Assembly: GCA_036873755.1 (NCBI GenBank)
Contig: JAVTVY010020580.1
Span: forward strand, 16,128-80,127
Source of the DNA: Hanleya hanleyi
Taxonomy: Eukaryota; Mollusca; Polyplacophora; Lepidopleurida; Hanleyidae
DNA: 64,000 nt
Reading direction: 5' to 3'
Shown: positions 8,130 through 60,753 of the stretch, in pieces
Layout: the number at the start of each line of letters is the position of its first letter
Numbering within the stretch: the stretch's first letter is position 1
Made by a program: the position numbers and the translations under genes
The notes under the pieces: model-generated
What the model saw: only the letters and a program-made list of their open reading frames with translations
The model's database searches: none
Told to the model about the DNA's origin: nothing

Positions 8130-8374
8130 TGTAATTCGGCAGTGTTTGGTCAGTGCCGTGAAGCAGGGACCTGATGTCTCCTCCTTCAGTGACGACCCAG
8201 CAGACAGCTGAAAGGAACGTCTGATGTAATTCTACCGTATTGAAGCCTTTGTTATTATACTGTGGATTATCTACACTTTCGGAGAAAGGACTGCGTGTTC
8301 ATTCTACTCATCTGTGATTGGTAGCTGTGCCGAGCTCCACGACGAGGGCGTCGTGTTTTCGAAGGCGTGGGTAG
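8130..8374 (+). other. Ty3/gypsy 3' untranslated region and polypurine tract
   Basis: Non-coding stretch between the pol stop and the 3' LTR. The bases just before the LTR (GAAGGCGTGGGTAG, 8361-8374) are purine-rich and are the likely plus-strand primer, though a weak match to a polypurine tract. Confidence 0.5.
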
Positions 8375-20791: not shown

Positions 20792-20820
20792 AGTAGTATA
20801 TAGTGCGCATTAACCCGCGT

Positions 20821-20875
20821 ATTGACCTTTGACCTCAGAAATTTGCATATCACGTGCCAGAGGTCAAAGGTCAAT
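20821..20875 (+). promoter_or_regulatory. Terminal control block: inverted DR1 pair, octamer, E-box
   Basis: Perfect 16-bp inverted repeat, ATTGACCTTTGACCTC (20821-20836) and its complement (20860-20875). Each half is a DR1 nuclear-receptor element (AGGTCAAAGGTCA). Between them are ATTTGCAT, the octamer recognised by POU/Oct proteins (20841-20848), and CACGTG (20851-20856). The octamer lies 50-57 nt from the element end. The arrangement repeats in the right TIR at 48335-48389. Binding is inferred from consensus only. Confidence 0.7.
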
Positions 20876-20972
20876 GAGTGCACTTGAGTTGACCTGTATC
20901 CTTTCATCTTGTCTTTGACCTTGGATCATGCTTAGACATGTTAGGGCTGGGGGTTTTCCATCACGTGCGGTA

Positions 20973-20987
20973 TGACGTCACTTCCGG
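20973..20987 (-). promoter_or_regulatory. CRE/ETS composite site
   Basis: TGACGTCACTTCCGG, a CRE directly abutting an ETS core. The same site lies in the right TIR (48223-48237), the relic at 151-165 and the related terminus at 55175-55189, so it is conserved across the family while nearby sequence diverges. Confidence 0.65.
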
Positions 20988-21264
20988 TCTGGGTGAATGG
21001 GGCGTGACCTGTGAACCTGATATGACATGTACTGACCCGTCTGTGGGGTTTCTCCCTACAATGTCGTTCACCTTCGTGTTTTTTTGGTGAGGTGCGAAGA
21101 GTACGTCCGTGTCTTTTCGGTGATGTCCGTGGGAACATGATAGGCCATGTACTGTCTGTGGGGTTTTTCCCGCCAGAATTTCGCTTCCCAGTCTGGGGAC
21201 TTATATCCGGGTCCTTTAGCTGTGTCTTCCGGGTACATCCGAGTTTACACGGGAACAGTCGGGT

Positions 21265-21495
21265 AGTTACGGAGGAAGACACGGAGGTGACCGAAGATGT
21301 CACGGAGGTGCCCGAAGAGACACGGAGGTTATCGAAGATGTCACGGAGGTCACCGAAGAGACACGGAGGTGACCGAAGATGTCACGGAGGTTACCGAAGA
21401 GACACGGAGGTGCGCGAAGAGTCACGGACGTTACCGAAAAGACACGGAGGTGACCGAAGAGACACGGAGTTTGCCGAAAAGACACGAATGTCACG
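21265..21495 (+). repeat. TIR minisatellite, CACGGAGGTGACCGAAGA units
   Basis: About twelve units of 18-21 bp with alternating GACCGAAGAGA and GACCGAAGATGT. Mirrored at about 47500-47725. Similar arrays mark relic or derived termini at 36-80, 59680-59770 and 60815-61005. Confidence 0.9.
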
Positions 21496-21503
21496 GAAAA
21501 ACG

Positions 21504-21539
21504 TATAAAAGAGGGAATTTTTAGGGAATTGCTTCATTC
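21504..21539 (+). promoter_or_regulatory. Core promoter of the polymerase gene inside the TIR
   Basis: TATAAAAG at 21504-21511 and CATTCA at 21534-21539, a 30-bp spacing that fits TATA to cap site. The copy in the right TIR (TATA complement 47475-47482) pointed at the CARD-PC4 gene before the LINE separated them. The ATG of the polymerase frame is 21654. Confidence 0.65.
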
Positions 21540-21653
21540 ATTGCCCTGCCGATCGGAGCTACCTGACCAGCCTGAGCCAGCCTACCTGAGGAGTGACCAG
21601 TCTACCCGAGGAGTGACCAGCCTACCAGTGGAGCCTGAAGCCAGACCGATAGC

Positions 21654-24600
21654 ATGAGACGTGGAGAAGATTTTCCAGAGGATCCAGGAGCGCCACCGGC
21701 TGAAGTCTTACCCGAAGACGAGCGTGTGAGTGCGTTGTGCCGCCGTCACTGGACCACGATACGCCGTTTTCTCCACCGTCACCGTCGTCTATTGGATTTG
21801 TATAATTTTCGGTTGGATGACCTCACATATCTTCCTACTTACGCCGAGAACATTTTTACAGATCAGGTGACAGCCTTCAAATTGAATGTGACATTTGGGT
21901 ATATCTTACGGCACAAAGAGACGGACCAACTGCGGTATTTCTACCCCAGTAATAATTCCTATGTGTTTGACCAGCCGTTCACGGTCACGGATGCTATTTC
22001 TCTGGAGCCACTCATCGACCAACTGACTACGTTGGATCCATTGGAATGGGCCCGGTTGCAACGTCCCAACACCAAATGGGCTGTAGAAATGGTGACGAAC
22101 GTCACATTTTTCGTCACGAAAATGAGAAATCACCCCGTCGGCGCTCCTGTTATTCTTCCGCCTTGGCTGCTCAATCGAAAAGGACTATGCGTTAGCGAGA
22201 GGCTCAAACGGCCCCTACAAAGACCGGAAATGTCTGTTTCGGTGTTTGGCCGTTCATTTGGACCAGTGTAATTCTAGGAATTGTGATAGAAATGCAACAC
22301 TGTATTGGGAAGAGTATCTAGAGGCGCAAGATATTGACCCGCGGCAGTTCCGGGGAGTCCCATTCAAGCATTTGGATGTCGTGGAAACACTGTTCCACGT
22401 GAATATCTTTGTGTACCGTTTACTACCGGAGGAGGAGGAGGAGGAGGAGGAGGATACATTTGTGGCTGAATTGGTTCATCGCTCAACAGAACGGTATGCC
22501 TCTACGATGAAAGTCAATGTCTTCGACAACGGAGGGGTGAGTCATTTTTCGCTGATTCACGATATGAGCCTGTAAGCGCAATCCTACAGTTGTTCTCAAT
22601 GCCATCGTGTGTTTGACCGTTCATACGACTTACATCGGCATGAGAAGACTTGTGACAACGCTGTGAAACGCAAATTTCCTGGTGGTGTGTACCATAACAC
22701 GCCTACTATTTTCAAAGACCTGGCTGATGAGGGGATTGTCATACCACTAGAGGACCGTTATTTTCCCTACGGGGCGTGTTATGATTTCGAGGCCATTTTG
22801 GAACCCATGGACATTTTCTCAGCCAAAACGCAGTGGACACAGCGCCATATTCCCCTGAGTGTCAGCATTTCCAGCAACGTACCCGGCTATGACGCTGCAC
22901 CTGTCTGTTTCGTGTCCACTGGGGACTCCCATGAGTTGATTACTCGGATGATGGAGTATTTAGAGGCAGTGAGTGCGGCCAGTACAGAACTGTTGGTGTC
23001 CAAGTTCGAGGACGTGCTGGACCAACTCGACGATCGTATTCCTACACCTGGTGTATCCTTCAGCGACGATGAAGAGTCGGAAACGGAGTCGGAGACGGAG
23101 TCGGAGTCGGCGATGCAGGACATTCAGCCGGAGGCTGTACCCTTACCCAAGCCGTATGCGGAGAAACTGAAGTTACGCTTCCTACAATACCTAGGCCAGT
23201 TACCTGTGCTCGGTTTCAATTCGGGGCGATACGATTTGAACATGGTGAAGGAATTTCTCTACCCTTACTTGTCCCAGTCCGATACCATCAAGTCCGTCAT
23301 CAAAAAGATCAACAACCACATTACAACACATATACACCACATCATTCCATTTCCTGGATGTACGCAACTACTTAGCTTCAAATTACAGCTACGATCAGTG
23401 GGTAAAGGCCTATGACTGTGCACAAACCAAAGGGAGGTTCCCTTACACCTATATGTCAACGCTCGACCACTTGGAGGAAACACAGTTACCACCCCGGGAC
23501 GCTTTCTTCGACGATCTGAAGCAAGTGGAATGTCCAGAAGACACGTACCGGGAACTACAGCAAGTAGGGAACGACCAACATATGCAGACCTTGCGTGATT
23601 TCCTGGTGTATTATAACAACTTAGATGTGGTTCCATTCCTCGAAGCGGCCGAGAAAATGGCCCAACTCTTTCGGGATCAAATGCGCGTGGACATATTCAA
23701 AGAATGCTTGAGTTTACCGGGTCTCGCCCTTCGCCATCTTTTTCAAGATTGTTCCACATACTTTTCACTCATACAACAAAAAGACGCGGATATGTATGAT
23801 TGTTTAAAGCAGAATATCGTCGGCGGACCTAGCCTTATTTTCCACCGTTATCACGAGAAGGACGTCACCACCCTTCCAGGTGGGAAACCCTGTGCCAAAA
23901 TCATCGGATTTGACGCCAATGCCCTGTATCTGTGGTCTCTCGCCCAACCTATGCCCAGTGGGCATTATGCACGCTGGTTGGCGGAAGGCCAGCATTTCCG
24001 ACCTGAACGTACACCGTACAAGCATCTGGCTGACCAGTGGTTGGACTGGGAAGCCGATCGACGGGGAATTTCTATACGACACCAAACCAACGCCACAGAT
24101 AAGCGGATAGGAGATCGTCGACTCCCCGTGGATGGGTTTGCTATACTCCACAATAAACTCACCGTATTCCAATTTTACGGGTGTTACTGGCACGGCCACC
24201 AGTGCCATTCCAACGCTGGCCGCTTCAACGAACGACGTGGAAAATCGGTGGAAGAACTACGGGCAGAAGTGGTGGAGAACGGGGATTACGTGAAAGAGAT
24301 GGGGTACCAGCTCATCGAAATGTGAGAGTGTGAATTTCACACCATGTGCCAGCCCTCCCATACTTACGTCGCTTCCTTAAAGCGCGAGAGTACCCTCTCA
24401 GTCGTTCCGTGGACCTCTACGGGTTTGTAGAATGCGATCTGCATGTTCCAGACAATCTCAAGCCACTATTCGCCCAGTGCCCACCCATCTTTAAAAACAC
24501 GCTGGTGAGTCGGGATGACATTGGAGACACCATGGGCGCTTATGCTGAGCAACACGAATGCCTGCCTCGTCCTCGTCGGATGCTGATCGGGAGCATGTGG

Positions 24601-25542
24601 GGAGAAAAAATCTTGCTGGGTACCCCTCTGCTACAGTGGTACATGAGCCACGGCCTCGAAGTGACGCCAGTGTTCCAAGTCCTTCAGTACGTACCGAACG
24701 ACTGTTTTGCGGGGCATGCCGACATCGTCACATCTGCCCGTCGTAAAGGCGATAAAGATCCTAGTCAGGCCATTATCGGCGAATCCTGGAAACTCACGGG
24801 CAATGGTTACTATGGAAAAACGGTCACCAACCAAGACAAGCATGTCAACGTGAATATCTGCACCACCCAACAAGCGCGCAAAAAGATCAACTCGCCTCTG
24901 TTTCGATCCGTGGACGTCATCGATGATGATACGTACGAAGTCAGTTCAGCCAAGAAGACCATTCGTTACAACCTTCCACTCCAAATTGGATGTATGGTAT
25001 ACCAGGTGGCCAAGCTGAGGATGCTGCAATTTTTATACGATTTCATGGCGGTATATTTCAATCCATCAGACTGGCAACTCATGGAGATGGACACGGACTC
25101 TGCCTACATGGCCGTCTCTAATGCGGATTGGGAGTCACTCGTCAAACCTGAATTACGTGCGCAGTATGAGGCGGAACGGGACCAGTGGCTACCTCGACGC
25201 GAGCATTACCAGTACAACAAGCGGACGCCGGGTCTCTTCAAGTTAGAGTGGAGTGGAGATGCCATGATCGCCCTGTCGTCCAAGACGTACTATTGTTACG
25301 GAGGTGATGGAAACAACAAGTTTAGTTGTAAAGGCGTCAACCGACGTGACCCTGCCATCGACAAAGCCCTCTACCTGGGCGTGCTGCAAAGCCAAGCCAG
25401 TGCGAGTGGCACTAACAGAGGATTCCGGGTCGTCGACCACCAGATGCGAACCTACACCCAGAAACGAGATGCTTTCACATTTTTCTATCCGAAACGGAAA
25501 GTCCTTCCCGATGGAGTCAGTACCACCTATCTGGACTTGTGA
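21654..25542 (+). pseudogene. polB: Polinton protein-primed DNA polymerase B, broken
   Basis: Homology runs through 21654-22271, 22246-22575, 22609-23415, 23453-24325 and 24346-25542. Lesions: a frame change around 22150-22250, in-frame TAA at 22573-22575, a frameshift near 23320-23345, TGA at 24323-24325, and a frameshift near 24340. Seen in order: N-terminal region, a C2H2/C2HC-like finger (about 22590-22660), exonuclease motifs YDFEAI (about 22780), GFNSGRYDLN (about 23213) and YYNNLDVV (about 23610), polymerase motif A DANALYLWSL (about 23910), motif B GNGYYGK (about 24800) and motif C DTDSAY (about 25090). Catalytic residues persist in the fragments. Unlike the three related ORFs at 58-62 kb, it has no N-terminal C2H2 array before this region. 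Confidence 0.95.
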
Positions 25543-25602: not shown

Positions 25603-25688
25603 GTCGGGATGGCCGAGTGGTCTAAGGCGCCGGTTAACAGTGCTGGTCTGCGCAATGCAGGTCGTAGGCTCGAATCCTACTCCTGACA
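25603..25688 (+). tRNA. tRNA-Leu-like gene with abnormal anticodon loop
   Basis: 86-nt class II cloverleaf: acceptor GTCGGGA/TCCTGAC, D arm with GCC...GGC, anticodon stem CCGGT/GCTGG, variable arm CTGC-GCAAT-GCAG, T arm GTAGG-CTCGAAT-CCTAC. A box TGGCCGAGTGG and B box GGCTCGAATCC are intact. The body matches animal tRNA-Leu(CAA). The anticodon loop is TAACAGT, so U33 is replaced by A and positions 34-36 read ACA. It lies between the convergent polymerase and protease genes. It may be a decayed capture, a tRNA-derived SINE head or an odd suppressor-like tRNA; decoding function is doubtful. Confidence 0.7.
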
Positions 25689-25897: not shown

Positions 25898-26371
25898 TTA
25901 AGACAACCAGAGAAATGGGGCATGCACATTAAAACGAGAGGCAACCCAGGCGTACACTAAGACATCACGGTCTTCGGCTTGAAAATAAGCATCAAACATA
26001 TGTACAATCGTTTGCATAGAAAGTCCTCTACTCCGGTGGGTGAGATAAAACACACAGTACTGTCCGCATACACTACTCAAGGGTCCTTGTAATCTTTTAG
26101 TATTCCAACGCCACACTGTAGTAGATTCGTCCATGAACTGGGTCAAATCGGGATGCACGGGTGCAAGTCCGTAGGAATCAAAGTATTCTCCTTGACCCCG
26201 GGCGTCCACGTATACAGCCACCCAATGTTCACCCGGTCGAGTACCAGGGTCAGTATTCAGAATGTAGGCCGCAGGAGTGGATGGGGTGGGAAAGACATTG
26301 CGTGCAAACACACCTCGAAAGGGTACCCGGGGATCCCGCTGGAGTATGGTCATGAGCTGCTCTGTATCCAT
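25898..26371 (-). CDS. Adenovirus-type cysteine maturation protease
   Basis: 157 residues from the Met at 26371; the frame is open upstream to 26434. The C5 family catalytic set is visible: His in GEHWVAVYVD, acidic residue in YFDSYG and nucleophile Cys in SSVCGQYCVFYL. In adenoviruses and Polintons this enzyme cleaves capsid and core precursors in the immature particle. It is the last gene of the minus-strand virion cluster, 100 bp downstream of the major capsid remnant. The frame is intact, though slightly shorter than usual. Confidence 0.9.
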   Translation of the reverse strand: MDTEQLMTILQRDPRVPFRGVFARNVFPTPSTPAAYILNTDPGTRPGEHWVAVYVDARGQGEYFDSYGLAPVHPDLTQFMDESTTVWRWNTKRLQGPLSSVCGQYCVFYLTHRSRGLSMQTIVHMFDAYFQAEDRDVLVYAWVASRFNVHAPFLWLS

Positions 26372-26473
26372 GACTCTAGCTGGCTTAGTCACACAGGACG
26401 TTCCTTTGCTGATCCACGGTGATGACGTTATCAAACTCGGCGTACCAAATCACGTTAATGGTATGGAGTAGAG

Positions 26474-28168
26474 CTACCGAGAAACGCAGTTTCCTTTCTT
26501 GAGCAAGGCCAGTTGATGATCGTGTTCCAAGGTAGGGGTGAGGGCGAAGGCGAACAAAGTGTACCCACTGGCAAAGTCTCGTCGAGTGATGGTATTTCCT
26601 TCGTCCTGATTGTTTTGTCCTGTGGCTGTAAACAGGTTCAGGTAGCTCCGCATATAGTGATGGTTACCAAAATCCGGTTGTAACGGCCGGGCTGGGATTT
26701 GATGACCGGCCACGTGCAGTGCCACAAAGTTGATGTTGAAATGTTGAAAGTCGAACGGATTCTCTGTCCACTGGCCATTGAAACTGGTATTGGTGACACA
26801 CGCCAGGGTAAGACGTTTAGGCAGATCCCCTAGAAATAAATTTTCACGATTGGCCATCATCGTACCTGCTGGCACAGAGAACACCTTGGTCTGTACGCGT
26901 CGGACGGGGTACAGGGCTGGTTTTTTCGATAAGGCTTCCATGTGACTCACCAACACCCCCTGTTGCATATCCACCGTACGGACAAACAGGGCTGCATCTT
27001 CTATGATGATCTTGTAATGGGCGGGATCTCCACCGGCCATCAAAGCGAAAGTGGGTGGGGAACGGATCAACTTGATCTTGATGGATACGCCGTTCATCAT
27101 GTAGCGGTCTTGCAGGAACAGATCGGCGTGCAGTCGTCCCATCATATCCACGGACCGGCTACCGGCTGCGATGGCCGAACCCGGTATTGGCAATGGTGGT
27201 CGCATCCATTGCTCCGGGTGTATCTCTGTAGTAAAGTGGGGCTGACAAGTGTGTTCCACCAAGCGCCTCCACTCAAAGTTTCTCAAATTTGGCGATACAT
27301 ATCGCATGCTGATAGCAAAATACGAACGTAGCGTGCAAGATAAATGGCGCTACGTTTCGTAACTTGTGTCTAATTCCGCTTAACCCGGGGCTAGGGGCTA
27401 GGTATGAACCCATGTACTTCAAGATCCTCATGGTACTCATATAAACAGTCACAATCAAAGCGTGACTGAGATACATCATTCTTTAGATGACGACTTTACA
27501 ACGAATATTATGGATTAAGAATACTGATCAGCGATACGGATTTGATATTTTTGGAACATCATGATGTCTTGCCGGCATCATTGAAAACTGTTGACCGCTT
27601 CTCTCTTGCAGGAAACAAGCCTATGTTTGTGTATACTATGATTGTCTTTTTGAATTTGGTGCTAATACTGTTATATGGAATATGGAATAGGTCTTTGGAT
27701 TATGGACGCGGATATTCTCTAATGGACGACGGCTGGATTATGAATGACGGACTAGACGCTTGTAATTTTGGCATCTTCTCCGTACGACAACAGCGTCTCG
27801 ATGTAGGCTCGGTACGGGTACGTATTGGTGGACGTGCTGATGAGTTTATCGCTCAGACTGATATCCACCTGTTGGAACAGCGAGTGCAGCCAGAGATTCA
27901 CCGGAGCTACGACCGCATCGACCGCGATGTCCGTCCCGTCTCCGTTCACTACTTTGGCTTTCACGTAAGGGTAGGTGTGATGTAAATCCAGGTAGGCCGT
28001 ATCTTTGTTTTCAATGGTAAATTCCAGCGGTCCCGTGCCCGTCAGGCTAGCCAGGGGCCGATGTTCTACCCAACGACCTTCGGCGACACTGGTCTGTGTG
28101 GAGGGAATAGTCCACAAACCCAATTCACTGTTGGTAGACGGACACGACTCGGAGTGAATGAATGCCAT
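26474..28168 (-). pseudogene. Major capsid protein (double jelly-roll), interrupted
   Basis: N-terminal part at 28168-27752 (138 codons) begins MAFIHSES and ends near YIETLLSYG. C-terminal part at 27307-26474 (277 codons) contains RLHADLFLQDRYMMNGV and SGYTLFAFALTP. Both are typical of the Polinton hexon-like protein that forms the icosahedral shell. The halves are in the same frame but separated by about 445 bp without capsid homology and with stops. The start codon overlaps the stop of the upstream core gene (TAATG, 28166-28170). This lesion alone would prevent particle formation from this copy. Confidence 0.9.
27308..27751. other. Unidentified sequence interrupting the capsid gene
   Basis: About 445 bp between the two capsid halves, AT-richer than its surroundings and with no recognised domain. 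No clear inverted termini or target duplication seen. It is probably an insertion combined with a small deletion of capsid sequence. Confidence 0.5.
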
Positions 28169-28569
28169 TATGCGAAGATGCCTCTCCTCTTCTTCTTCTT
28201 CTGGGATGTGCGTCGTCGGTGTGTTGGCTGTCGAATGACTCTACCCTGTGATGGGGGTTGTCTTTCAAGGGCTTTGGCCACCAAGACGCTGCCTGCTTCT
28301 TTGGCCCGTCGTTTCAAGGCTTGTCGGGGTGCCGTCCCACTCAAGACATCACCGACCACTTGCAGTCCACTGCGTACCGCTTGTTTGCCCACCGCTTTTA
28401 CGCCACGTGTCACCAGAGGTAAGAACGTTTTCACGAAGCTTCCCACTATGTTTCCCAGCCCGTGACCTCGTTGCATGCGTGCACCGCTAAAGATCGGACC
28501 TCCACCTCCCGTTTGTTTCTTGTAATAGTCGGCATAGCTGGCCGTATGACACTGGTAAGGCACGTACAT
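28168..28569 (-). CDS. Polinton core / minor virion protein (pX/pVI-like)
   Basis: 133 residues. A central Gly-rich and basic amphipathic stretch includes GGGGPIFSGARMQRGHGLGN, followed by GSFVKTFLPLVTRGVKAVGK, then a strongly basic tail (RRRTSQKKKKRR). This resembles the small basic core or membrane-active proteins of adintoviruses and adenovirus pX/pVI, which bind DNA or the inner capsid. Role inferred from composition and position between penton and major capsid genes. Its ATG lies at the penton stop and its stop overlaps the capsid ATG. Frame intact. Confidence 0.75.
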   Translation of the reverse strand: MYVPYQCHTASYADYYKKQTGGGGPIFSGARMQRGHGLGNIVGSFVKTFLPLVTRGVKAVGKQAVRSGLQVVGDVLSGTAPRQALKRRAKEAGSVLVAKALERQPPSQGRVIRQPTHRRRTSQKKKKRRGIFA

Positions 28570-29357
28570 TATACGAAGTGGGGAGAACGTGCTTGTCGGA
28601 AATGAAGTGTCAGCACCACTTTCCCTCGTTCGAATGCCACCGGGCGTCCCGTGTCATCTCTTATATCCACCGTGATCGTCTTGATATCGGTGTGTCGTAC
28701 GGGTAGGTGGAGTATGTGGTTGAAACTCTGGGTGACTTGATCTCCATACTTCTTTCTAATGGGGACCACCCGTAACAGAGGTGTGTTGACATCTCCCACA
28801 ACGTGGTTGTCGACCACGTCCGAGTAGACGTAGAGTCCGTACATACCCACTTTCATATCCATCGCAATGTCGCCTTCGTCGGTGGTTGGGCCCGGGTAGA
28901 CGGAATAAGGGAGACCTAACATTTGCTGTAGGGTGGGGCTGAGTTTGACACTCACGTTGAGGCTGAGAAGGATACAGGCCTTGTCGTTGAGTGTGTTGTA
29001 ATCGAACTCCACATGATTCTTGAAGGGATAGGATTTGACGGGTTTTGAATTATTCGTGACTACCCGTAGAGACTTATAATGCATCAGTGTTCTCAAGCCA
29101 TCCATGAACTCTTTGGGGGTATCGTATTGGCTTTCGGGTAGGGTCAGCCGGGTTACTTTGCCTTCGTAGGTCACCTCGTATCACACGTCGTTGTCTCGCA
29201 CGTTGTTCCACGAGTTAGTGTATTGCATATCCACGAGTCCGCATTCCCATCGTCCAGGTAAATGCAACGGTTGTGGTAACCGGGTCACGTACTTGGCCAA
29301 GGTGTTGTCAGGAAACACATCGAACGAACTGTTACTGGGCCACCTGAGGTAAAGCAT
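28569..29357 (-). pseudogene. Minor capsid (penton) protein, single jelly-roll, one nonsense codon
   Basis: The frame from ATG 29357 to 28569 would give 262 residues but has one in-frame TGA at 29183-29181. Downstream of it 201 codons are clean. Recognisable parts: MLYLRWPSNSSFDVFPDN at the start, then GMYGLYVYSDVV and FNHILHLPVRHTDIKTI toward the end, as in Polinton pentons that occupy the five-fold vertices. The single stop suggests recent decay. Confidence 0.85.
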
Positions 29358-29432
29358 GACAACTGAGCTTTTCTGCTTTCGCTCCCGGCTTTAATAGTGT
29401 CCCCTAGTAGGGTTCCACCCTAGTAGGGTTCC

Positions 29433-30161
29433 CTAGTAGGGATCCCAGGTCTTGGGAATCCCCTTCCGTCGTGATCGGCGCGGTGTGGCCGGCATGGAGG
29501 TCGCATAGGGGTGAAAAGAACGTCCCCGCCGTGAGGGTGTTTTGGGAGGGGTGTGCGGTTGCCATTCCCAGGTATCGGGAAGTCGAGAGGGTGCTTGCAT
29601 CCAGTTCCAGCGTTCACGATTTCCTACCAATTCTCGAGGGACGTGTGTGTCTTTCAACGCTCTAGCAAAGGCTTCCCAACCCGGTGGATTAGAGTGTTTG
29701 CGAGAACGCACCGTATCGTTGATCAGATCGGTGATATGAGACCCCGGGACCGCTTGGTTTCGAATAAGCAGCTGCCCCTGGTCGGTCCAACCCATATCAG
29801 GATTCTGTTTCACCCGGTCCAACAATAAACGAGCCTTGGTCTTGAATGCCTTAGGGACACTGGCCAACACCTCCTCTTCGAGCTGAGGTGAGGCAGAGGA
29901 TGAGGTTGGTGTTGGTGTGGGTGGTGTGGGTAGTGTGGGTGTTGAACCACCTCTATATTGATCCATAAACGTCTTGTACCGGTTCAGCGTCTGATGGTAA
30001 AGTTGAATTTTCTCGTGATCGGGCAGTCGGCGTTGAAGTATACTATTCATCTCTTCATCGAGGGACTGCAGTTGTTGTACCGTGGCAGGAACAGGGTAGG
30101 GTGATTGCAAACTTTGTAACAGTCGAGGTTCGACCAGCATCATTTTTTTCGTATGTTCCAT
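29433..30161 (-). CDS. Conserved Polinton protein of unknown function (242 aa)
   Basis: Starts MEHTKKMMLVEPRLL. A predicted helical segment follows (LDEEMNSILQRRLPDHEKIQ), then a Pro/Thr/Ser linker (PTLPTPPTPTPT), a second conserved block with GSHITDLINDTV and PGWEAFARAL, and a basic C-terminal tail. This two-block layout is familiar from other Polintons and their fragments in animal genomes, where it sits in the virion gene cluster. No enzymatic motif; probably structural or scaffolding. The start is next to the stop of the upstream gene. Frame intact. Confidence 0.7.
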   Translation of the reverse strand: MEHTKKMMLVEPRLLQSLQSPYPVPATVQQLQSLDEEMNSILQRRLPDHEKIQLYHQTLNRYKTFMDQYRGGSTPTLPTPPTPTPTSSSASPQLEEEVLASVPKAFKTKARLLLDRVKQNPDMGWTDQGQLLIRNQAVPGSHITDLINDTVRSRKHSNPPGWEAFARALKDTHVPRELVGNRERWNWMQAPSRLPDTWEWQPHTPPKTPSRRGRSFHPYATSMPATPRRSRRKGIPKTWDPY

Positions 30162-30162
30162 G

Positions 30163-30501
30163 TTAGCGTCCCAAGATGGATCCTACTAACGGTCCCAGTA
30201 CGGAGGCTGCTAATGGCGCGAGGAGTGCCCCGAGAAATCCACCTCGCTGTAACACCTGTTTCTTTTTCTTTAAACTTCCCGTCTTCTTCACCAGCGTTCG
30301 GAGACCCGTCTTGTGCCGTTGCAATTTCCCTTTCTGCAGGGGACTGAGGGGAACATTCCCTTTTAACACATTATGAGCGACTTCACACAAGCACCGTACC
30401 AATCCCGCGTCCGCCCCGCGCACCAGGGCCCGGACCACCTCCGGGGGCGCGCTGCGTAACATGCGGAGCGCCGGTGCGTGCTTCCGTATTCGCGCAGACA
30501 T
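30163..30501 (-). CDS. Small conserved Polinton protein, basic with hydrophobic C terminus
   Basis: 112 residues: an N-terminal Arg-rich helical part (LRMLRSAPPEVVRAL), a conserved centre (EVAHNVLKGNVPLSPLQKGK), a run of Lys (LKKKKQVLQRGG) and a Gly/Ala/Leu-rich end (LLAPLAASVLGPLVGSILG). The end looks like a membrane-active or membrane-inserting segment. Homologues accompany Polinton capsid genes. A pVI-like membrane-disrupting role is an inference. Only one base lies between its stop and the next ATG. Confidence 0.7.
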   Translation of the reverse strand: MSARIRKHAPALRMLRSAPPEVVRALVRGADAGLVRCLCEVAHNVLKGNVPLSPLQKGKLQRHKTGLRTLVKKTGSLKKKKQVLQRGGFLGALLAPLAASVLGPLVGSILGR

Positions 30502-30540
30502 GATGAGAAAGTGAATGGTTTGAAGTGCGCTCTTGTTCTT

Positions 30541-31150
30541 TTATTTGGGCGTGTACACCGTCTGGAACTCTCCGGGAAAAATGTGGGTCCGCAATCGAAG
30601 TGCCGAAGGTGTCCCTTGTTTCAAGTCGATGAGTAGGTAGCCGTGGGCCTCCTGGGTGGCATCTTCAAAGGCTTCCCGAACAAAGGCCGTGTTTTAGGGT
30701 ACATCTGTTTCGCCAGGTGCATAATTTGTGACGCGTCTCTGGGGTTTTTGAACAACACCACATACTGGGCATTCAAACTGATGTTCCTGTGCTCTTTGTT
30801 CTTACTGAAGAGATTTTGGACGATGTAGATGATACTCAGCCGACGACGATGACTTCCTTTGGTAAAAAGCCGGGTGACTCGACTATCCGTTTCGGTCATC
30901 AGATCATCCACGACCACCAACGTGTCTTCTGGGTATCCTCTGGGGGTAATCCTTCCACCAAGGTAAGTCCAGGCCTCCGTGCCAGTTCCTCGTACGCAGG
31001 CTGTCAAGCTCCATAACACCAAAGGATGCGGGCCACGGGAGGAGAAATGAGGGCTGGCTCCTCGATGAGACGTTGAACGAAGTGTGTTTTTCCCGACCCG
31101 GTCGGTCCAGCGATGAGACACGTGAAAGGATGCTGCCACCGTGGATCCAT
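30541..31150 (-). pseudogene. Genome-packaging ATPase (FtsK/HerA-type), two frameshifts
   Basis: From ATG 31150 the first frame contains Walker A, GPTGSGKT (about 31110). Walker B, LVVVDDLMTE (about 30905), and the downstream YIVQNLFSK and ALNAQYVVLFKNP-type blocks are in another frame (30621-31139). The C terminus, ending at 30541 after QTVYTPK, is in a third. Frameshifts lie around 31020-31090 and near 30670. In relatives this enzyme pumps DNA into the capsid. All catalytic elements are present but not in one frame. Confidence 0.85.
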
Positions 31151-31858: not shown

Positions 31859-32977
31859 TTATATCCGTTTCATGTCACGGGCAGAGACCCAGGAATTAAA
31901 CGAACTGGGCCAACCTTGCCATTTGACGAAATGATAGGGGATGCCACGTCCACGTTCCGTTTTCAAAATCTCCTCCATCGTGTAGTAGCCTTTCTGTGTT
32001 TTTACGACCGGTTGTAATTCTGCCTCGTAAAACGTGCCTTGCAGTGTTTCTCCTTGTAGATCTTCCAGTTCATAGACGTGTGGATTTCGGGGACTATGGC
32101 GAGCGATGACAAAATGCTCATCACTCCAGTTGGGCAAGCAAGTTTTCTCAAATTGTCCTTTGACTTTACTGATCCGTACCACATCTCCGCGTTTGTAACG
32201 GGGTGAAGACCCTTCTTCAGGCGGTGAGTAGAGCGTACGGCGCACTTGATGTTCGTTGCGTTCCGTCACATCGATGGGCGCCCGTTGGATACTGCGATGA
32301 TAGGCTCGACTGTACCCTCGAACCAGTTGAGGTAGCACATCGATGTACCGTCGAGTGTTTTTGGCTGTTAAATACTTGTACATCCGACCTTTCAAGGTCC
32401 GATTGAACCGTTCTATCACAGAGGCTTTGGTTTCGTTGTACACCTTCTGTTTCTTGAGAAAGGCTTGAAAGTGTCGATTGAGAAATTCTGTGCCTTCATC
32501 TGTTTGCAAATAGAGAGGTTTGCGACCTGTCTTGAAAATCTGCCGGAACGCCTGTACAAGATTCTCCCCTGTTTTGGTCCGGATGGGTACCACCCAGGCG
32601 ACCTTGGACAAAATATCGATACAGGTCAACATGTACCGATGTCCATCATTGTGGGTAGCAAATCGACTCATATCGACCAAATCTGCCTGCCATTGTACGT
32701 CTATGCCTCCTACGATGACTCGGTTACGGCGAAAATGCCGTCGGGCTGCTCGATGTAAGCTATAAGTGTCTTGGGTTTTTAACCATTCGCGAACTTCCGC
32801 TCGACTGATGCCTTGGGACTGCGCAGCTCGACCGAGCGCTCCCACAGCGCTATAAGCGGCTGGACTGTCTGGACTGTAATACAATTCCGTTAACACCTTA
32901 TCCACATGTGTTGTACCCTTATCCTTTCGGGTGTCCCTACGGGTCTCCCTACGGGTGTCCCTACGGGTTCGCTTCAT
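31859..32977 (-). CDS. int: Polinton integrase (retroviral-type) with chromodomain
   Basis: 372 residues, frame intact. A basic N-terminal (RRDTR)n tail is followed by a zinc-binding-like region, then the DDE core: D in QADLVDM, D in LQTDEGTEF and E in ASVIERFNRT. The C terminus has a chromodomain (YYTMEEILKT ... YHFVKWQGWPSSFNSW), which in other elements reads methylated histone H3 tails and biases insertion toward heterochromatin. It would join Polinton ends to target DNA, usually with a 6-bp duplication. Being intact while polymerase is broken may reflect chance. Confidence 0.95.
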   Translation of the reverse strand: MKRTRRDTRRETRRDTRKDKGTTHVDKVLTELYYSPDSPAAYSAVGALGRAAQSQGISRAEVREWLKTQDTYSLHRAARRHFRRNRVIVGGIDVQWQADLVDMSRFATHNDGHRYMLTCIDILSKVAWVVPIRTKTGENLVQAFRQIFKTGRKPLYLQTDEGTEFLNRHFQAFLKKQKVYNETKASVIERFNRTLKGRMYKYLTAKNTRRYIDVLPQLVRGYSRAYHRSIQRAPIDVTERNEHQVRRTLYSPPEEGSSPRYKRGDVVRISKVKGQFEKTCLPNWSDEHFVIARHSPRNPHVYELEDLQGETLQGTFYEAELQPVVKTQKGYYTMEEILKTERGRGIPYHFVKWQGWPSSFNSWVSARDMKRI

Positions 32978-33829: not shown

Positions 33830-34740
33830 TCTACTACGCCCTGTGAATCGGGCCCCCCCCTTCGTGAAAGTCCGTCATTGTTCGGTAGTGTAATGTTATT
33901 TGTATAGGATTTCATTTAACATGAAATTTCACTAGTCAAAGCTTAAGCACAAAATGAGGATTGTAAATTAACCCAGGAAGAATGCCGAGACACTTTGGAC
34001 CAATCGGCATCATCCTGGGTTAAGGGTGGTGATTTTTAACCCACGATTTCATAGTGCCGAGCTTGGTGGGATTCTGGCATTTTGTGTAATGTTATTTGTA
34101 TAGGAATTCGTTTAACCTAGAAATTCACAGTAGCGAGCTTCAGCCTAAAACAGGATTGTAGATTAACCCAGGAAGAATACCGAGACACTTTGGACCCATG
34201 GTAAGACGATCATTCATCGAATGACTAAGTCCCAAATAAGAGCCAATCAGTGCGTTTTAGACAACCAATCGACATCATCCTGGGTTATTGTATGGGACTT
34301 CAATTTAACCTAGGAAATCGCTATTGAAAGCTTGGTGGGATTGTAGAGTTTTGTCAGTGCGCATTTGTTTTGGACCAATGAGAGCCCCTAATTGTTAACC
34401 TAGGAAATTGTCATTGAGACCTTGGAGAGATTGTAGCGTTCACTATTGTCCGTCAGCATTGGTATACGAATTCATTTAACCTGGGGCTCATAGCTTGAGC
34501 CTAAAAAAAGAAGATTGTAGACAGAATACCGAGACACTTTGCACCCATTGACATCATCACAGGGTAGTGATTTTTAACCCACGATTTCACAGTAGCGAGC
34601 TTGGTGAGATTGTGGTGTTCTGGTAGCGCGCCTTTTTGGACCAATGAGAGCTCGCTATTTCAACCAATAGATTTGTCCGAACGAGGCGCCAATCGACGAG
34701 CTTCGCGCCTTTTAGACAGCCAATCGATATCCACCCCATT
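33830..34740 (+). repeat. Repeated upstream control region with CCAAT boxes
   Basis: About four degenerate units of roughly 200 bp sharing TAACCCAGGAAGAATGCCGA, GAGACACTTTGGACC, CATCATCCTGGGTTA and TTTAACCTAGGAAAT. Many CCAAT words lie on the plus strand, densest near the gene at 34810. The region separates the minus-strand integrase/PC4 cluster from the plus-strand H3-tail-like gene and probably serves as an enhancer. No ORF of note. Confidence 0.6.
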
Positions 34741-34782
34741 TGAGCTTATAAACTCCCAGCCCAGCGTAGAGAAGCACATTCA
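34640..34782 (+). promoter_or_regulatory. Histone-like promoter: four CCAAT boxes, TATA, CATTCA cap
   Basis: CCAAT at 34640, 34664, 34689 and 34720; TATAAA at 34747-34752; CATTCA at 34777-34782, 30 bp downstream. The ATG at 34810 leaves a leader of about 30 nt. Clustered CCAAT boxes, TATA and a PyATTCPu cap with a very short leader are classic for replication-dependent histone genes. Confidence 0.65.
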
Positions 34783-34809
34783 ATCACAATTTCTTTTCGT
34801 GAAGACAAC

Positions 34810-35190
34810 ATGGGCAAGACTAACCTGGTGGCGAAGATGTCTACGGGCGGAGCGAAAAGAAGGAGGAGAGAGACCCATGAAGAAAACAGACAAACCAGTC
34901 ACCTATGGGAAGATCGCCGACAGCTGGCGAGAGCCGTAAAAGCCTTTTGGCTAGAAGAAATAAAGAAATGGGCCCGGAACAACACCAACATGACTCGACT
35001 GGCGTGGCACGATCTGCACCATCTTGTCACCAGGGCACCGCCCGATTTACAGGGAGAAGACTGGTTGGCCGCCTTAGATGATGTGCTGAAACAGCCCCAA
35101 CCAGTCGTCCCCGAAGTCCAGCCCGAGTTCATAGATATTGGGGAATTGGCAGAAGCCCAGGCAGCTGCCCAACAACAGCGGGACCAATAA
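34810..35190 (+). CDS. H3-tail-like protein, histone-type transcription unit
   Basis: 126 residues, intronless, in good start context (ACAACATGGGC). Counted from Gly1, residues 1-18 are GKTNLVAKMSTGGAKRRR. Thr3, Ala7, Ser10, Thr11, Gly12, Gly13 and Arg17 coincide with histone H3 in the same register, with Lys/Arg swaps at 2 and 8. Position 9, a key methylated lysine in H3, is Met. A basic RRRRE patch follows, then a helical region (QLARAVKAFWLEEIKKWARN ... DLHHLVTR) and an acidic, Pro/Gln-rich end. No clear histone fold is visible. Flanked by a histone-like promoter and a histone 3' stem-loop. Function unknown; chromatin interference is an inference. Confidence 0.6.
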   Translation: MGKTNLVAKMSTGGAKRRRRETHEENRQTSHLWEDRRQLARAVKAFWLEEIKKWARNNTNMTRLAWHDLHHLVTRAPPDLQGEDWLAALDDVLKQPQPVVPEVQPEFIDIGELAEAQAAAQQQRDQ

Positions 35191-35252
35191 CAACAACAGC
35201 CCGGGGGGAGAATTCCCCCTTCCTGAGACAACAGGGTAAAAAAACATCCAAC

Positions 35253-35268
35253 GGCCCTTTTCAGGGCC
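35253..35268 (+). terminator. Histone-type 3' stem-loop
   Basis: GGCCCTTTTCAGGGCC: six-base stem and TTTC loop matching the metazoan replication-dependent histone mRNA stem-loop, flanked by CCAAC and AACCA as expected. It lies 62 nt after the stop of the gene at 34810-35190. A purine-rich CGAAAGGGGA about 11 nt downstream could be the U7-binding element. Implies processing by SLBP/U7 without a poly(A) tail, in S phase. Confidence 0.85.
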
Positions 35269-36004
35269 AACCAGTCCTTCGAAAGGGGACTTTTTAATCT
35301 GGCACATTGAAATTAACATGAGGTCCTACAATCTCCTCTCCTCTATGAATGACACACTAACGTGGTAAGGTTGCCTAAAGTAAGTGAGCCGAAAGTCCAT
35401 TTATTTCAAGTTCACCGTACTTTTAACACAGTCGTGCAGGTGAAATTGGGCTTTTGAAACGTGGAAAATGAAAACAAATACAGTTTTATGCAGCCGTTAG
35501 CTCTATGAAATTTTCAGGGTTACACGATAACATGCCAAGGTATAAATTTAAAGTTGTTTTAGATCTCAACTGGTGTTTATTAAAAATTTAGCCCGCTTCC
35601 AAATCTTGCAGAAAGCACACATCATTTTGTCTTTTCTTTCTGGCCATGATGTCTAGACAGATTTCGCTGACGTCCGCGCGCCCTCAGCCTTCTACGGTAG
35701 AGAATAAAAAAGCGGGCTGTCGGTCGTCTGCTACACACATTCATTTCACCTTCCCCTTGCATAGAGTGAACACTGACACACATGAGTTGAATTTCTAATA
35801 TTTATTAACAGTAGAATGAACATAAGAGTTTCATCGGTTCTTTGTGTTAAATTTCTAAAAGCATTATACGGTGTCACCATGATGGTAGAATGAACATAGA
35901 ATGAACATAGCATGAACATAGAATGTAGGAATACGGTAACGTGTGAATGTTCAATATTTAGTTAACAAGACTTGTTTGAAATCATGTCTTTCATGTCTGA
36001 ATGT
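35269..36004. other. Intergenic region with short direct repeats
   Basis: Mostly AT-rich. GAATGAACATA occurs four times around 35889-35920. A ~45-bp segment (GAATGTTCAATATTTA...CAAGACTTGTTTGAA) occurs at about 35946 and again at 36001, the second copy being the end of the 72-codon gene. No gene beyond the micro-ORF below is supported. Confidence 0.5.
35588..35647 (-). CDS. Possible 19-codon micro-ORF
   Basis: ATG at 35647, product starting MARKKRQND, stop at 35588-35590, AATAAA complement at 35577-35582 immediately after. The poly(A) signal and compact context are the only support; the length is well within chance. Confidence 0.2.
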   Translation of the reverse strand: MARKKRQNDVCFLQDLEAG

Positions 36005-36223
36005 TCAATATTTAACCAACAAGACTTGTTTGAACTCTTCCGTGTCTTTTTGCCACGCGTGCATGAATAGGAAGGCCGCAATCTGCTCACGGGGAATTCT
36101 CGGTGGACAGACCGCTTCCAATGCCTCTGCGATTTCCGACTCGTTGATGTCGTGTAACACCTCAGTCATCAGCGCGTCTGACGGTGCCGCCCAAGGATGC
36201 GGGCCATCCAGACACGTATGCAT
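36005..36223 (-). CDS. Unknown 72-aa protein downstream of CARD-PC4
   Basis: Starts at ATG 36223, two bases beyond the stop of the PC4 frame. Contains acidic helical stretches (LHDINESEIAEALEAV, REQIAAFLFMHAWQ). No domain recognised. Tight spacing suggests either a separate small gene or the displaced C terminus of the preceding protein. Confidence 0.45.
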   Translation of the reverse strand: MHTCLDGPHPWAAPSDALMTEVLHDINESEIAEALEAVCPPRIPREQIAAFLFMHAWQKDTEEFKQVLLVKY

Positions 36224-36225
36224 GT

Positions 36226-37195
36226 CTAACGATCCGACACAGCCTGCACATTGTTGGATACGCTCACCTTCAATGCGCGGTTTAAGATGATTTCAATGTA
36301 CTTTTTGTAGATATACTCAGACAGCTGGTCACGCAGAGCTCCAGAAATTTCGGGTGCGAGGTGCTGAAGCTTCCGCCACGCAGGTATTTGCAGGGTGACT
36401 CCCTCGGGTAAGGGAATACGCGTAGTATCTTTCTTTAACTTCCATTTACGAATATGTACCAGCAGCATGTTGTTGAACATAGAACAGGTGAGGAAGACAT
36501 CGTCTCCACAACAAAATTTATGTTCGATGTGGTTCTCAATGACCGCCTCGACGACTTGACTTTGTGTGTATCTGTACTCTTTTCCATTGCTCAAACGTCA
36601 AGGCAATATGCTTAGGTGGTTTATCGTCCCAACCTGGTGCATTAAAGTGCACTTGCTCATCTTTCACGGTTACAGTTAAATAGGGCGTGAGCTCCCAACT
36701 GGTGATCTGGGCCGCCTGGTAGGCCTGCTGGATGATATCATTCATCTGCTCCACAGACATAGGCGTTAGCATCTCTTCCTCCGCTTGCTGAGGCTCTTGC
36801 TGAGGCATTATTAAAGGTGTTAGTTGGGAACGTTTGGCTGGTAGATAGGACTCTTCCGGGTCTTCCTGGGCACGTTTGCTACCTGTACTCTCTTCGGGAA
36901 TGTCTATGACTAAGGTATGTTCCTCGGGTTGAAGTAGAGAGGCTATTCCCGCATTCCCCGTCTCTCTCAGCGCCTCCAAGAAGGCCTGAAATGCTAAAGG
37001 ACCTCGGCGTGGTAGAGTGTCCATGAGGGCTCTGTTTCGTGCTGTATTGGTATTCTGTGCCATGATGTCTTCTTCCATGTATGTAGTGATTACGTTTCTC
37101 AACAGAAGCAGATCACATAGTTCGGCCACATTCATCATCTCACTAATGATCTGGACACGGTGCTGCATCAGCTTAGCTCGGTCAGAGGAGTCCAT
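36226..37195 (-). pseudogene. CARD - PC4 - PC4 fusion protein, frameshifted
   Basis: First frame, 37195-36536 (219 codons): residues 1-90 form a CARD (MDSSDRAKLMQHR, MEEDI, LPRRGPLAFQAFLEALRETG, ASLL). A linker with a KR-rich patch follows, then a PC4/SUB1-like half ending HIALTFEQWKRVQ. Second frame, 36594-36226: a clearer PC4 domain (CCGDDVFLTCSMFNN, LLVHIRKW, GVTLQIPAWRKL). The frames overlap by 59 nt, so one indel near 36560-36590 probably split one gene. CARDs mediate apoptosis and innate-immune assembly; PC4 binds ssDNA. The leader lies in the right TIR, so the gene originally shared the TIR promoter. Confidence 0.75.
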
Positions 37196-37230: not shown

Positions 37231-37279
37231 CAGGCTGGTCAGGTAGCTCCGATCGGCAGGGCAATGAATGAAGCAATTC
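37231..37279 (-). repeat. Inner segment of the right TIR
   Basis: Complement of left TIR 21526-21574 (GAATTGCTTCATTCATTGCC ... ACCTGACCAGCCTG). It is cut off from the rest of the right TIR by the LINE at 37280-47456. Confidence 0.9.
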
Positions 37280-47456: not shown

Positions 47457-48418
47457 ATTCCCTAATAATTCCCTCTTTTATACGTTTTTCCGTGACATTC
47501 GTGTCTTTTCGGCAAACTCCGCGTCTCTTCGGTCACCTCCGTGTCTTTTCGGTAACGTCCGTGACTCTTCGGGCACCTCCGTGTCTCTTCGGTAACCTCC
47601 GTGACATCGACATCTTCGGCCACCTCCGTGTCTCTTCGGTGACCTCCGTGACATCTTCGGTAACCTCCGTGTCTCTTCGGGCACCTCCGTGACATCTTCG
47701 GTCACCTCCGTGTCTTCCTCCGTAACTACCCGACTGTTCCCGTGTAAACTCGGATGTACCCGGAACACACAGCTAAAGGACCCGGATATAAGTCCCCGGA
47801 TGTAAACCACAGATGAACAGGTCAGTACACGCATTCCTATCATTCAATATGACCTTGAACTATCACCTGATCTCCCCGTGATTCCCCAAATACAAGTCAG
47901 TACACGCATCCCACCAATGGTATTGCTAAAGGACCCGGATATAGGGCAATCCTTGCGAACGTGCAACAATGTTGCAATTCGGGGAGCCAGGTGTTCGGCA
48001 CGTGACAACCTCAAGCAGACGACAGCGAAATTCTGGCGGGAAAAACCCCACAGACAGTACATGGCCTATCATGTTCCCACGGACCTCACCGAAAAGACAC
48101 GGACGTACCCTTCGCACCTCACCGAAAAAAACACGAAGGTGAACGACATTGTAGGGAAAAACCCCACAGACGGGTTAGTACATGTCCTATCAGGTTCACA
48201 GGTCACGCCCCATTCACCCAGACCGGAAGTGACGTCATACCGCACGTGATGGAAAAACCCCAACCCTAACATGTGTAAACATGATCCAAGGTCAAACACA
48301 AGATGAAAGGATACAGGTCAACTCAAGTGCACTCATTGACCTTTGACCTCTGTCACGTGATATGCAAATTTCTGAGGTCAAAGGTCAATACGCGGGTTAA
48401 TGCGCACTATATACTACT
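47457..48418 (-). repeat. Polinton right terminal inverted repeat (outer part)
   Basis: Complement of 20792-21529 with one extra ~220-bp segment (about 47798-48020). That segment holds degenerate TIR-like words (ATATCCGGGTCCTTTAGC, GCGTGTACTGACTTG). Ends in ...ATACTACT at 48418. Contains the mirrored CRE/ETS and origin-like blocks. Confidence 0.95.
48335..48389 (-). promoter_or_regulatory. Right terminal control block: inverted DR1 pair, E-box, octamer
   Basis: ATTGACCTTTGACCTC (48335-48350), CACGTG (48354-48359), ATGCAAAT (48362-48369) and GAGGTCAAAGGTCAAT (48374-48389). The octamer is again 50-57 nt from the end. Mirror image of 20821-20875. Confidence 0.7.
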
Positions 48419-58393: not shown

Positions 58394-59290
58394 TTAGCCG
58401 ATGGGGTGGTCGGTCAGCTTGGTAACGAAAAACGTGACATTGGTCATACTCTCCACTGTCCACTTGGTGTCGGGACGTTGTTGTTGGGCCCATTCCAAGA
58501 CATCCACGGTGTCCAGTTTCTCCAGCATCGTCTCTAGCGACACCCTATCCGTGATGGTAAGCGATTGGTCAAATACCCGGATGTTACTGCTCGGGTAAAA
58601 GTATCGGACTTGGTCTGTCACGTTATGCTGCAGCACATAACCAAACGCCAGATTTAATTTGAAGGACGTAGTTTGATCGTTGAACATGGCTTCCACGTAG
58701 CTGCGTAAACGGGCGAGGTCGGTCAGTCGGAAATTGTAGATATCTTGAATAGGGCGATGACGGTGGAAACAGTGCCGTATCATGGGCCAATGGCGCCGAT
58801 AGATGTCACTCACTGGATGGTCTTCGTGTAACAGATCGCTAAGAACATTTATGGGTTCATCCGCGAAGTGTACTTTGCTCTCCACGTCGTACAAATTCTG
58901 ACCCAAAGTCTTGTCGTCGGAATTTGACTGTTGAATTAGGAGGATATCATCATCATCGGCCTTCGTGCGGTGGGTGGGAGTTCCCGCTGTCTCGATACTG
59001 TTGCCTACGGGCTCCTCTACCTGCAAACTTGGCTGCGGATCAGGGTGTTGTGTACGTTGGTGTCGCAGCAACAGACTGGGCAGTTTGAAAAGTCGACCAC
59101 ATTCCTCGCATAGATGCTTGGGTGTCCCATGCACTGTCCGTTCATGACACCGTAGACTGTCCTGGCGAATAAATAGTTTCCCACACCTCGTGCAGCTATA
59201 CCGGGTGGTTCCGTCGTGCTTGGTGGCCTCATGGCAGCGCAAGTCGTGCAGACGAGTAAACTGCTTCTGGCAAGTTGTGCAAGTGAACAT
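58394..59290 (-). CDS. C2H2 zinc-finger protein with Polinton PolB N-terminal region, left arm
   Basis: 298 residues, intact. Three C2H2 fingers at residues 1-80 (CTTCQKQFTRLHDLRCH, CTRCGKLFIRQDSLRCH, CEECGRLFKLPSLLLRH). A linker of about 75 residues follows, then a block (about 155-298) homologous to the first frame of the Polinton polymerase at 21654: IYNFRLTDLARLRSYVE, SFKLNLAFGYVLQH, RYFYPSSN, TNVTFFVTKL. It stops at HPIG, where polymerase continues in the full element. AATAAA complement at 58265-58270. No exonuclease or polymerase motifs, so not catalytic. May bind DNA near element ends. Promoter missing in this arm. Confidence 0.8.
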   Translation of the reverse strand: MFTCTTCQKQFTRLHDLRCHEATKHDGTTRYSCTRCGKLFIRQDSLRCHERTVHGTPKHLCEECGRLFKLPSLLLRHQRTQHPDPQPSLQVEEPVGNSIETAGTPTHRTKADDDDILLIQQSNSDDKTLGQNLYDVESKVHFADEPINVLSDLLHEDHPVSDIYRRHWPMIRHCFHRHRPIQDIYNFRLTDLARLRSYVEAMFNDQTTSFKLNLAFGYVLQHNVTDQVRYFYPSSNIRVFDQSLTITDRVSLETMLEKLDTVDVLEWAQQQRPDTKWTVESMTNVTFFVTKLTDHPIG

Positions 59291-59838: not shown

Positions 59839-60753
59839 AGGTTCACTTGTACTACGTGCTCGAAATCATTCACTCGTCTGCACGACTTGCGCCGCCATGA
59901 GGCTACCAAGCACGAAGGAACCGCCCGGTATAGCTGTACGATATGTACACTATCGTTTCAGCGCCCGGATCATTTACAGCGCCACACACGTGCACGCCAT
60001 GAAGTACCCAAGCGTCCATGCAAAGAATGTGGTCGGCTTTTCAAACTGACCAGTCAGTTGCTGCGACACCAACGCACGCGACACCCTGTTCCGCAGCCAC
60101 GTTTGCAGGTAGAAGAGCCCGTAGGCATCAATATCGAAACAGGGGGAACTCCCACCCATCGCACGAGGGCCGATGATGATGTCGCCCTAATTCAACAGCC
60201 AAATTCCGACGACAAGACCTTGAGCCAGACTTTGTACGACGTGGAGGGCAAAGTACACTTCGTGGACGAACCCATAAATGTTCCTAGCGATCTGTTACAC
60301 GAAGACCATCCAATGAGTGACATCTATCGGCGCCATTGGCACATGATCCGGCACTGTTTCTACCGTCATCGCCCTATTCAAGATATCTACAATTTCCGAC
60401 GGACCGACCTCGCCCGTCTACGCAGCTACGTGGAAGCCATCTTCAACGATCAAACTACGTCCTTCAAGTTGAATCTGGCGTTTGGTTATGTGCTACAGCA
60501 TAAGGACACAGACCAAGCCCGATATTTTTACCCGAGCAGTAACATCCGGGTATTTGACCAACCGTTTACCATCATTAACCGGGCGTCGCTAGAGGCGATG
60601 CTGGAGAAACTGGACAACGTGGATCCCTTGGAATGGGCCCAACAACAACACCCCAACACACAATGGGTCGTAGAGAGGGTGACCAATGCCACGTTTTTCG
60701 TTACCAAGCTGACCGACCACCCCCATCGGCTGAATGCGTCACACATGCACTGA
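59839..60753 (+). pseudogene. C2H2 / PolB-N gene, middle copy, start codon lost
   Basis: Same layout as 58394-59290. The expected ATG is AGG at 59839; the next in-frame ATG (59887) would delete most of finger 1. An extra C near 60720 shifts the last codons past the usual stop (ending ...ASHMH). Otherwise open, with diverged fingers (CTTCSKSFTRLHDLRRH, CTICTLSFQRPDHLQRH), so it is a separate, older copy. Confidence 0.75.

Follow-up and report, generated by a model that had tools for sequence, protein, structure and literature searches.

Replication-dependent histone genes of metazoans have a promoter of CCAAT and TATA boxes, a short leader, an uninterrupted open reading frame of histone size and a canonical 16-nt hairpin beyond the stop codon. 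The S-phase histone mRNAs are described, in the available portion of one paper, as the only animal protein-coding transcripts that lack a poly(A) tail (PMC12819152). Histone-related genes also occur in animal DNA viruses and their descendants. Bracovirus histone H4 and the single viral histones retain a highly conserved histone fold, and their tail matters for the effect on the host (PMC9145170 and PMC12819152, in the accessible sections). The 'Histoid' genes of adomaviruses and tailtomaviruses encode remote histone-like proteins of small animal DNA viruses, and one such gene in a clam data set is combined with adintovirus-like virion genes (PMC11071296, in extract). Among relatives of the Polintons, a scan of 8300 Polinton-like virus (PLV) genomes at the Rfam gathering cut-off gave histone 3′UTR stem-loops (n = 6); the available text does not tie the six to any gene, host or function, and places none in cryptophyte PLVs (PMC12220804).

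We have analyzed a 64-kb stretch of DNA, the window, in which a Polinton carries a gene, P0001, that shares with replication-dependent histone genes the promoter boxes, the short leader, the uninterrupted reading frame of histone size and the hairpin, which starts 62 nt past the stop codon. Unlike those genes, it lies inside a mobile element, encodes a protein with no detectable histone core, has a downstream element that is not convincing and has a hairpin scoring 3.4 bits under the RF00032 cut-off. The gene is laid out as follows.

33952-34640, + strand: duplicated array upstream, with four more CCAAT boxes (34000, 34243, 34265, 34375; repeat families D15, D16, D20)
34641-34724, + strand: four CCAAT boxes of the proximal promoter (starts 34641, 34664, 34689, 34720)
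34747-34752, + strand: TATAAA box
34777-34782, + strand: CATTCA initiator (30 bp beyond TATAAA)
34810-35190, + strand: P0001, uninterrupted open reading frame of 126 aa (ATG at 34810, stop codon ending at 35190)
35253-35268, + strand: histone-type stem-loop GGCCCTTTTCAGGGCC, with a 6-bp stem and UUUC loop (full Rfam match 35248-35293)
35272-35292, + strand: downstream region with the purine-rich GAAAGGGG (35281-35288), at the position of the histone downstream element
35579: ATTAAA, 311 nt past the hairpin
35703-35708, + strand: AATAAA, 435 nt past the hairpin

A sequence-only reading of this DNA had described the four CCAAT boxes, TATAAA, CATTCA 30 bp on, the reading frame, the hairpin with its flanks and the purine tract, and had assigned the gene to a Polinton. 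Every one of these components is present, and the Polinton context is borne out. As in other Polinton/Maverick elements, terminal inverted repeats (TIRs) enclose genes for a type B DNA polymerase (PolB), a chromodomain integrase, a protease, an ATPase and capsid-type proteins, several of them in interrupted frames, together with extra cargo.

20792-48418: Polinton, its right TIR split by a retrotransposon
20792-21574, + strand: left TIR, beginning AGTAGTATATAG (inverted repeats 97-98% alike, ends read)
within 20792-21574, + strand: left-TIR promoter, TATAAAAG (21504) followed by CATTCA, in front of the polymerase gene
21681-25539, + strand: PolB in four frame pieces (similarity to the L004 polymerase)
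25943-26374, − strand: protease (Pfam and L004 similarity)
26388-28168, − strand: major capsid protein, in pieces (similarity to L004 ORFs)
28183-28539, − strand: small basic protein, within the core-gene block 25943-31150
28575-29354, − strand: minor capsid protein (similarity to L004 ORFs)
29595-30161, − strand: PW-like protein (similarity to L004 ORFs)
30544-31150, − strand: packaging ATPase, in pieces (similarity to L004 ORFs)
31859-32977, − strand: integrase with chromodomain, open frame (PF00665; PF00385 just under the cut-off)
36226-36594, − strand: PC4-like protein, neighbouring cargo convergent with the P0001 gene
36536-37195, − strand: CARD protein, neighbouring cargo convergent with the P0001 gene
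37280-47456: LINE-like insertion of 10.2 kb (reverse transcriptase pieces, TGAT-rich end, 4-bp duplication ATTC)
47457-48418, − strand: outer part of the right TIR (inverted-repeat comparison)

The core genes were located by tblastn with the ORFs of two Polinton contigs from symbiont or MAG assemblies, L004 and L009, and the capsid and PW names are ones we assume from likeness to those ORFs. Pfam supports the protease and integrase inside the window, where the capsid-type ORFs have no Pfam match; in L004 the polymerase matches PF03175 (E = 2.8e-9), the ATPase the adenovirus IVa2 model (8.5e-5) and the protease its family weakly. For the integrase, the best-ranked relative comes from the chiton Liolophura sinensis (63% identity), with amphioxus proteins next among the named matches listed; this makes a mollusc or some other marine invertebrate the probable host. 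The inner 49 nt of the right TIR (37231-37279) are separated from the outer part by the LINE-like insertion, which interrupts the right-TIR promoter between its TATA box and CATTCA initiator. This right-hand promoter, whose left-TIR counterpart stands before PolB, apparently drives the CARD and PC4 cargo.

Other features of the window are recorded here. Tandem repeats of about 20 nt, of the GACACGGAGGTNACCGAAGA type, occupy 21192-21500 and 47486-47800 in the TIRs, and large arrays of repeats of about 150-175 bp lie at 38.6-42.6 kb inside the LINE-like insertion. A tRNA-like sequence lies between PolB and the protease gene (25603-25688; Rfam tRNA, 40.1 bits), which ARAGORN assigns to tRNA-Cys with the odd anticodon ACA; 558 tRNAs were counted in PLV/virophage genomes, according to the available text of PMC12220804. 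Beyond the TIRs, the stretches 58397-58858, 60019-60723 and 61718-62008 resemble the N-terminal part of the L004 PolB (39.8, 34.3 and 41.4% identity), and ORFs there match C2H2 zinc-finger models. A Gypsy-like retrotransposon at about 1242-8670 has aspartic protease, reverse transcriptase and integrase, and the repeated TATATAAG...CATTC stretches on either side of it are probably its LTRs.

The hairpin, flanked by CCAAC and AACCA, is the sole match without mismatch to GGYYYTTTTNARRRCC in the window, and 300 first-order Markov shuffles give an expectation of 0.0067 such hairpins per 64 kb. A comparison was made of the 184 perfect hairpins of 6-bp stem and 4-nt loop on both strands of the window and of 16 Polinton fragments. 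This hairpin alone agrees with the histone consensus at 16 of 16 positions; its own complement reaches 14 and the next independent hairpin 12. In RNA folding it appears in both the minimum-energy and the centroid structure, beside other hairpins. The Rfam family Histone3 (RF00032) matches over its full model (positions 1-46) with 30.6 bits. The E-value is 1.4e-6 for a stretch of 1 kb and, with all 4227 families, 9e-5 for the 64 kb. The score is 3.4 bits short of the curated gathering cut-off of 34 bits, and the match is unlisted at that level. The sequence-only reading had held that a stem-loop below the model threshold would refute it; the score is literally below by that amount, although the match is full length, the core aligns without any non-standard pair and the flanks fit the histone consensus. 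Taken together, sequence and covariance model strongly support a predicted 3′ end of histone type.

The promoter also resembles that of a replication-dependent histone gene, with multiple CCAAT boxes and a TATA box. The four same-strand CCAAT boxes, which we take to be of NF-Y type, span 84 bp. Of 200 shuffled windows, 13 contain at least four same-strand boxes within 120 bp at some place, and the window itself has another cluster of this kind at 51450; the promoter cluster is thus notable mainly for its location. TATAAA and CATTCA at like spacing are found also in the left TIR, before the polymerase gene (2 sites, against 0.2 expected), and looser TATA-like/CATTC pairs, for which no chance level was computed, occur elsewhere in the element at 35703, 33730, 30545 and 28665. 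As such pairs recur within the Polinton, the CATTCA initiator is not specific to histones. It is an element-wide style of initiator.

P0001 lies between the integrase gene and the CARD/PC4 pair, on the opposite strand to them, and starts in the context ACAACATGG. The length of the reading frame is unremarkable on its own (P = 0.06-0.10). Its codon score in frame 1 is 0.193, compared with −0.018 to −0.172 for the other five frames; ten ORFs of the element, each left out in turn, range from −0.114 to 0.090, several of these ORFs being parts of a single gene. Codon usage like that of the element's genes indicates that P0001 is coding.

The P0001 protein matches no family in Pfam, even with E-values as high as 10, and none in PHROGs. 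It has no relative among 5.8 billion proteins and none found in IMG/VR, and its match in the PDB is poor. The protein search weighs little as a negative, since it was insensitive: it drew a blank with the CARD protein too, though the CARD domain is clear. No core or linker histone is recognizable, and residues 22-126 are similar to H3, H4, H2A and H2B at the level of shuffled sequences. The protein has a basic N-terminus followed by a body that is predicted to be helical and is acidic on the whole. A single-sequence model (pLDDT 69.7) has an unstructured tail and helices at 13-57 (long), 63-75, 83-93 and 110-124. In structural comparison the model matched various helical proteins only moderately well, and none of the 47 matches listed is a histone.

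The N-terminus is the exception. In residues 1-20, MGKTNLVAKMSTGGAKRRRR, there is a likeness to the H3 tail, the first 14 aligning in register and without gaps to the sequence that we take as the H3 reference. In register 0, residues 2-14 score 31, for which P is 2.3e-6 under whole-protein composition and 1.4e-4 under N-terminal composition, and P0001 ranks first of 2418 peptides, itself included. The peptides compared were those of the window and of 27 loci that start at an ATG and stay open for at least 40 codons. Taking the best over four histones and three offsets gives P = 0.001 for 14 residues and 0.006 for 20, and an unconstrained local alignment with H3 starts at residue 1 in both proteins (P = 0.014). 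Residues 10-20 are also H4-like (GGAKRHRK; offset 1, P = 0.0018), and stretches rich in Gly, Lys and Arg match easily. Because of this H4 likeness, and because the H3 comparison was made post hoc, after the likeness had been noticed, we treat the tail as a suggestive trace, the sole one of a histone in the putative protein.

We consider, with moderate confidence, that P0001 is an accessory Polinton gene whose mRNA would be made like that of a replication-dependent histone gene and tied to S phase, and that it was perhaps built from parts of an H3 gene. The CCAAT and TATA boxes would drive a short intronless transcript. The hairpin and its Rfam match suggest that host SLBP would bind the stem-loop and the 3′ end be formed there, giving a non-polyadenylated mRNA that would be translated and stable mainly in S phase, a timing that should benefit a self-replicating DNA element. 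The protein might act on chromatin or on host histone-handling factors, these being its most likely targets. The sequence-only reading had proposed capture of a histone transcription unit. The H3-like start agrees with this circumstantially, and histone-like ends together with such a start would suit a captured H3 gene that either eroded or served as the base on which the present gene was assembled, with loss or replacement of the core; the lack of a Pfam family and of core-histone similarity in residues 22-126 does not agree with it. Descent from an H3 gene, and mimicry of its tail, are speculative.

The strongest alternative accepts the hairpin as truly histone-type and denies that the gene was ever a histone: an ordinary accessory or virion gene would have gained or evolved an SLBP-binding 3′ end, the H3 likeness being a coincidence of a basic N-terminus. 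The body unlike any core histone, the predicted fold of long and short helices with no histone among its 47 listed matches, the H4 likeness of the N-terminus and the element's own style of initiator all favour it, as do the six histone 3′UTR stem-loops in the PLV/virophage collection (PMC12220804, available text). Against it stands the match to the H3 tail in exact register (P = 2.3e-6 to 1.4e-4) in the sole gene with a histone 3′ end. We give this alternative somewhat less than an even chance.

A second alternative concerns the fate of the transcript, which might still be polyadenylated downstream, the hairpin then being an intermediate or serving stability or translation. The purine tract is no convincing downstream element: its region can form a second hairpin, and its pairing with what we take to be the 5′ end of human U7, which may differ from that of the host, is no better than that of shuffled sequences (P = 0.40). 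Both AATAAA and ATTAAA follow. Hairpins and poly(A) signals coexist in C. elegans and some human histone genes (accessible parts of PMC1924863 and PMC9756948), and the C. elegans genes have a different, putative downstream element, with AATAAA following closely (PMC1924863). On the other side, the signals here are far from the hairpin (311-435 nt), whose flanks match the histone consensus, and the AATAAA belongs to a TATA-like/CATTC motif as well. It may be a back-up poly(A) signal or the TATA-like box of another CATTC motif. We regard polyadenylation as unlikely. This second + strand motif (35703-35742) lies 3′ of the hairpin; between it and the PC4 gene a single + strand ORF of at least 90 aa begins, 35943-36290, and it runs into the PC4 gene.

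The third alternative is decay, in which gene and hairpin are unused remnants of an old insertion, perhaps a rearranged host histone fragment in a dead Polinton. This copy is damaged, since PolB, ATPase and the major capsid gene shift frame within the match, and a LINE-like element splits its right TIR; the P0001 gene may thus be dead as well. The TIRs are nevertheless still 97-98% alike, and the reading frame, promoter boxes and hairpin are all intact, with coding-like codon usage, which makes this account improbable. Chance, with both the ORF and the inverted repeat behind it being random, could explain the unremarkable ORF length, yet it is disfavoured as very improbable by the rarity of the hairpin, even with position and strand not yet counted, by its Rfam E-value over 64 kb and by the codon score.

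If the histone-like gene that we favour does encode an H3-like tail, a further step can be contemplated. P0001 has Met at the position of H3K9, within AKMSTGG and in register with the H3-like tail, a resemblance of sequence only. An S-phase-expressed decoy with Met for K9 (G-K-T-N-L-V-A-K-M-S-T-G-G) might trap H3K9 methyltransferases while chromatin is rebuilt behind the forks, as H3K9M does, and so let the element escape silencing. There are precedents for this logic in the available texts on H3K9M, which traps the H3K9 methyltransferase Clr4 and binds G9a (PMC5030085), and on EZHIP, a natural K27M-like inhibitor (PMC6513997). P0001 has in common with these K-to-M inhibitors the Met at the critical position, and the likeness is otherwise one of letters; we consider the decoy a long shot.

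How does P0001 compare with other Polintons? The comparison set comprised 16 Polinton fragments that carry an integrase and come from prokaryote assemblies (L001-L016; 97,076 bases), mostly short, with three over 10 kb (L004, L009, L010). They apparently entered bacterial MAGs and symbiont genomes as contamination of eukaryotic origin, for example those of Escarpia and Solemya symbionts and an Ignavibacteria bin, which has five. The hairpin pattern occurs in 0 of the 16, and a permissive Rfam scan of them (E up to 10) gave no Histone3 match. P0001 had no convincing tblastn match, the best (E = 0.33) being in L025, outside this set. The sequence-only reading had looked to a pairing of related ORF and stem-loop in other Polintons, and these fragments and IMG/VR provide no such pair. 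The hairpin is thus not general in Polintons, but with most fragments short, uniqueness is not implied.

That reading also knew of no Polinton with such a 3′ end. For animal Polintons our search agrees: in literature from which subscription journals were mostly absent, it gave no report of a histone hairpin in one, nor of a hairpin linked to a particular gene of an element of this class. Their relatives are another matter, given the six stem-loops of the PLV survey (PMC12220804, available text). Those are hairpins of the RF00032 type too, and differ from ours in having no stated gene context; a scan at the gathering cut-off would miss the present one, at 30.6 against 34 bits. The terms stem-loop, Polinton and Maverick do not occur in the accessible text of a review of viral histones (PMC9145170), nor does stem-loop in that of the 'Histoid' paper (PMC11071296). 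Bracovirus H4 and the single viral histones stand apart through their highly conserved histone fold, and P0001 has no Pfam match; the 'Histoid' genes, compared with it by description only, differ in being defined by remote protein similarity to histones. Viral histones, and histone stem-loops in Polinton relatives, were thus known; an animal Polinton with the hairpin tied to a defined gene appears to be new, no report of one having been found in the literature covered.

If our interpretation is correct, a selfish DNA would have hijacked the cell-cycle switch of the histone stem-loop for a protein with no recognizable histone core, and the stem-loop ending would let a gene be timed to the host's S phase by simple means. 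The six unexplained stem-loops of PLVs suggest, as far as the available text of the survey goes, that the present hairpin may not be a lone case (PMC12220804). Were the likeness to the H3 tail functional, a transposon-encoded histone-tail mimic would join the silencing arms race, and if the decoy reading were true, it would be a natural, transposon-encoded K-to-M histone mimic.
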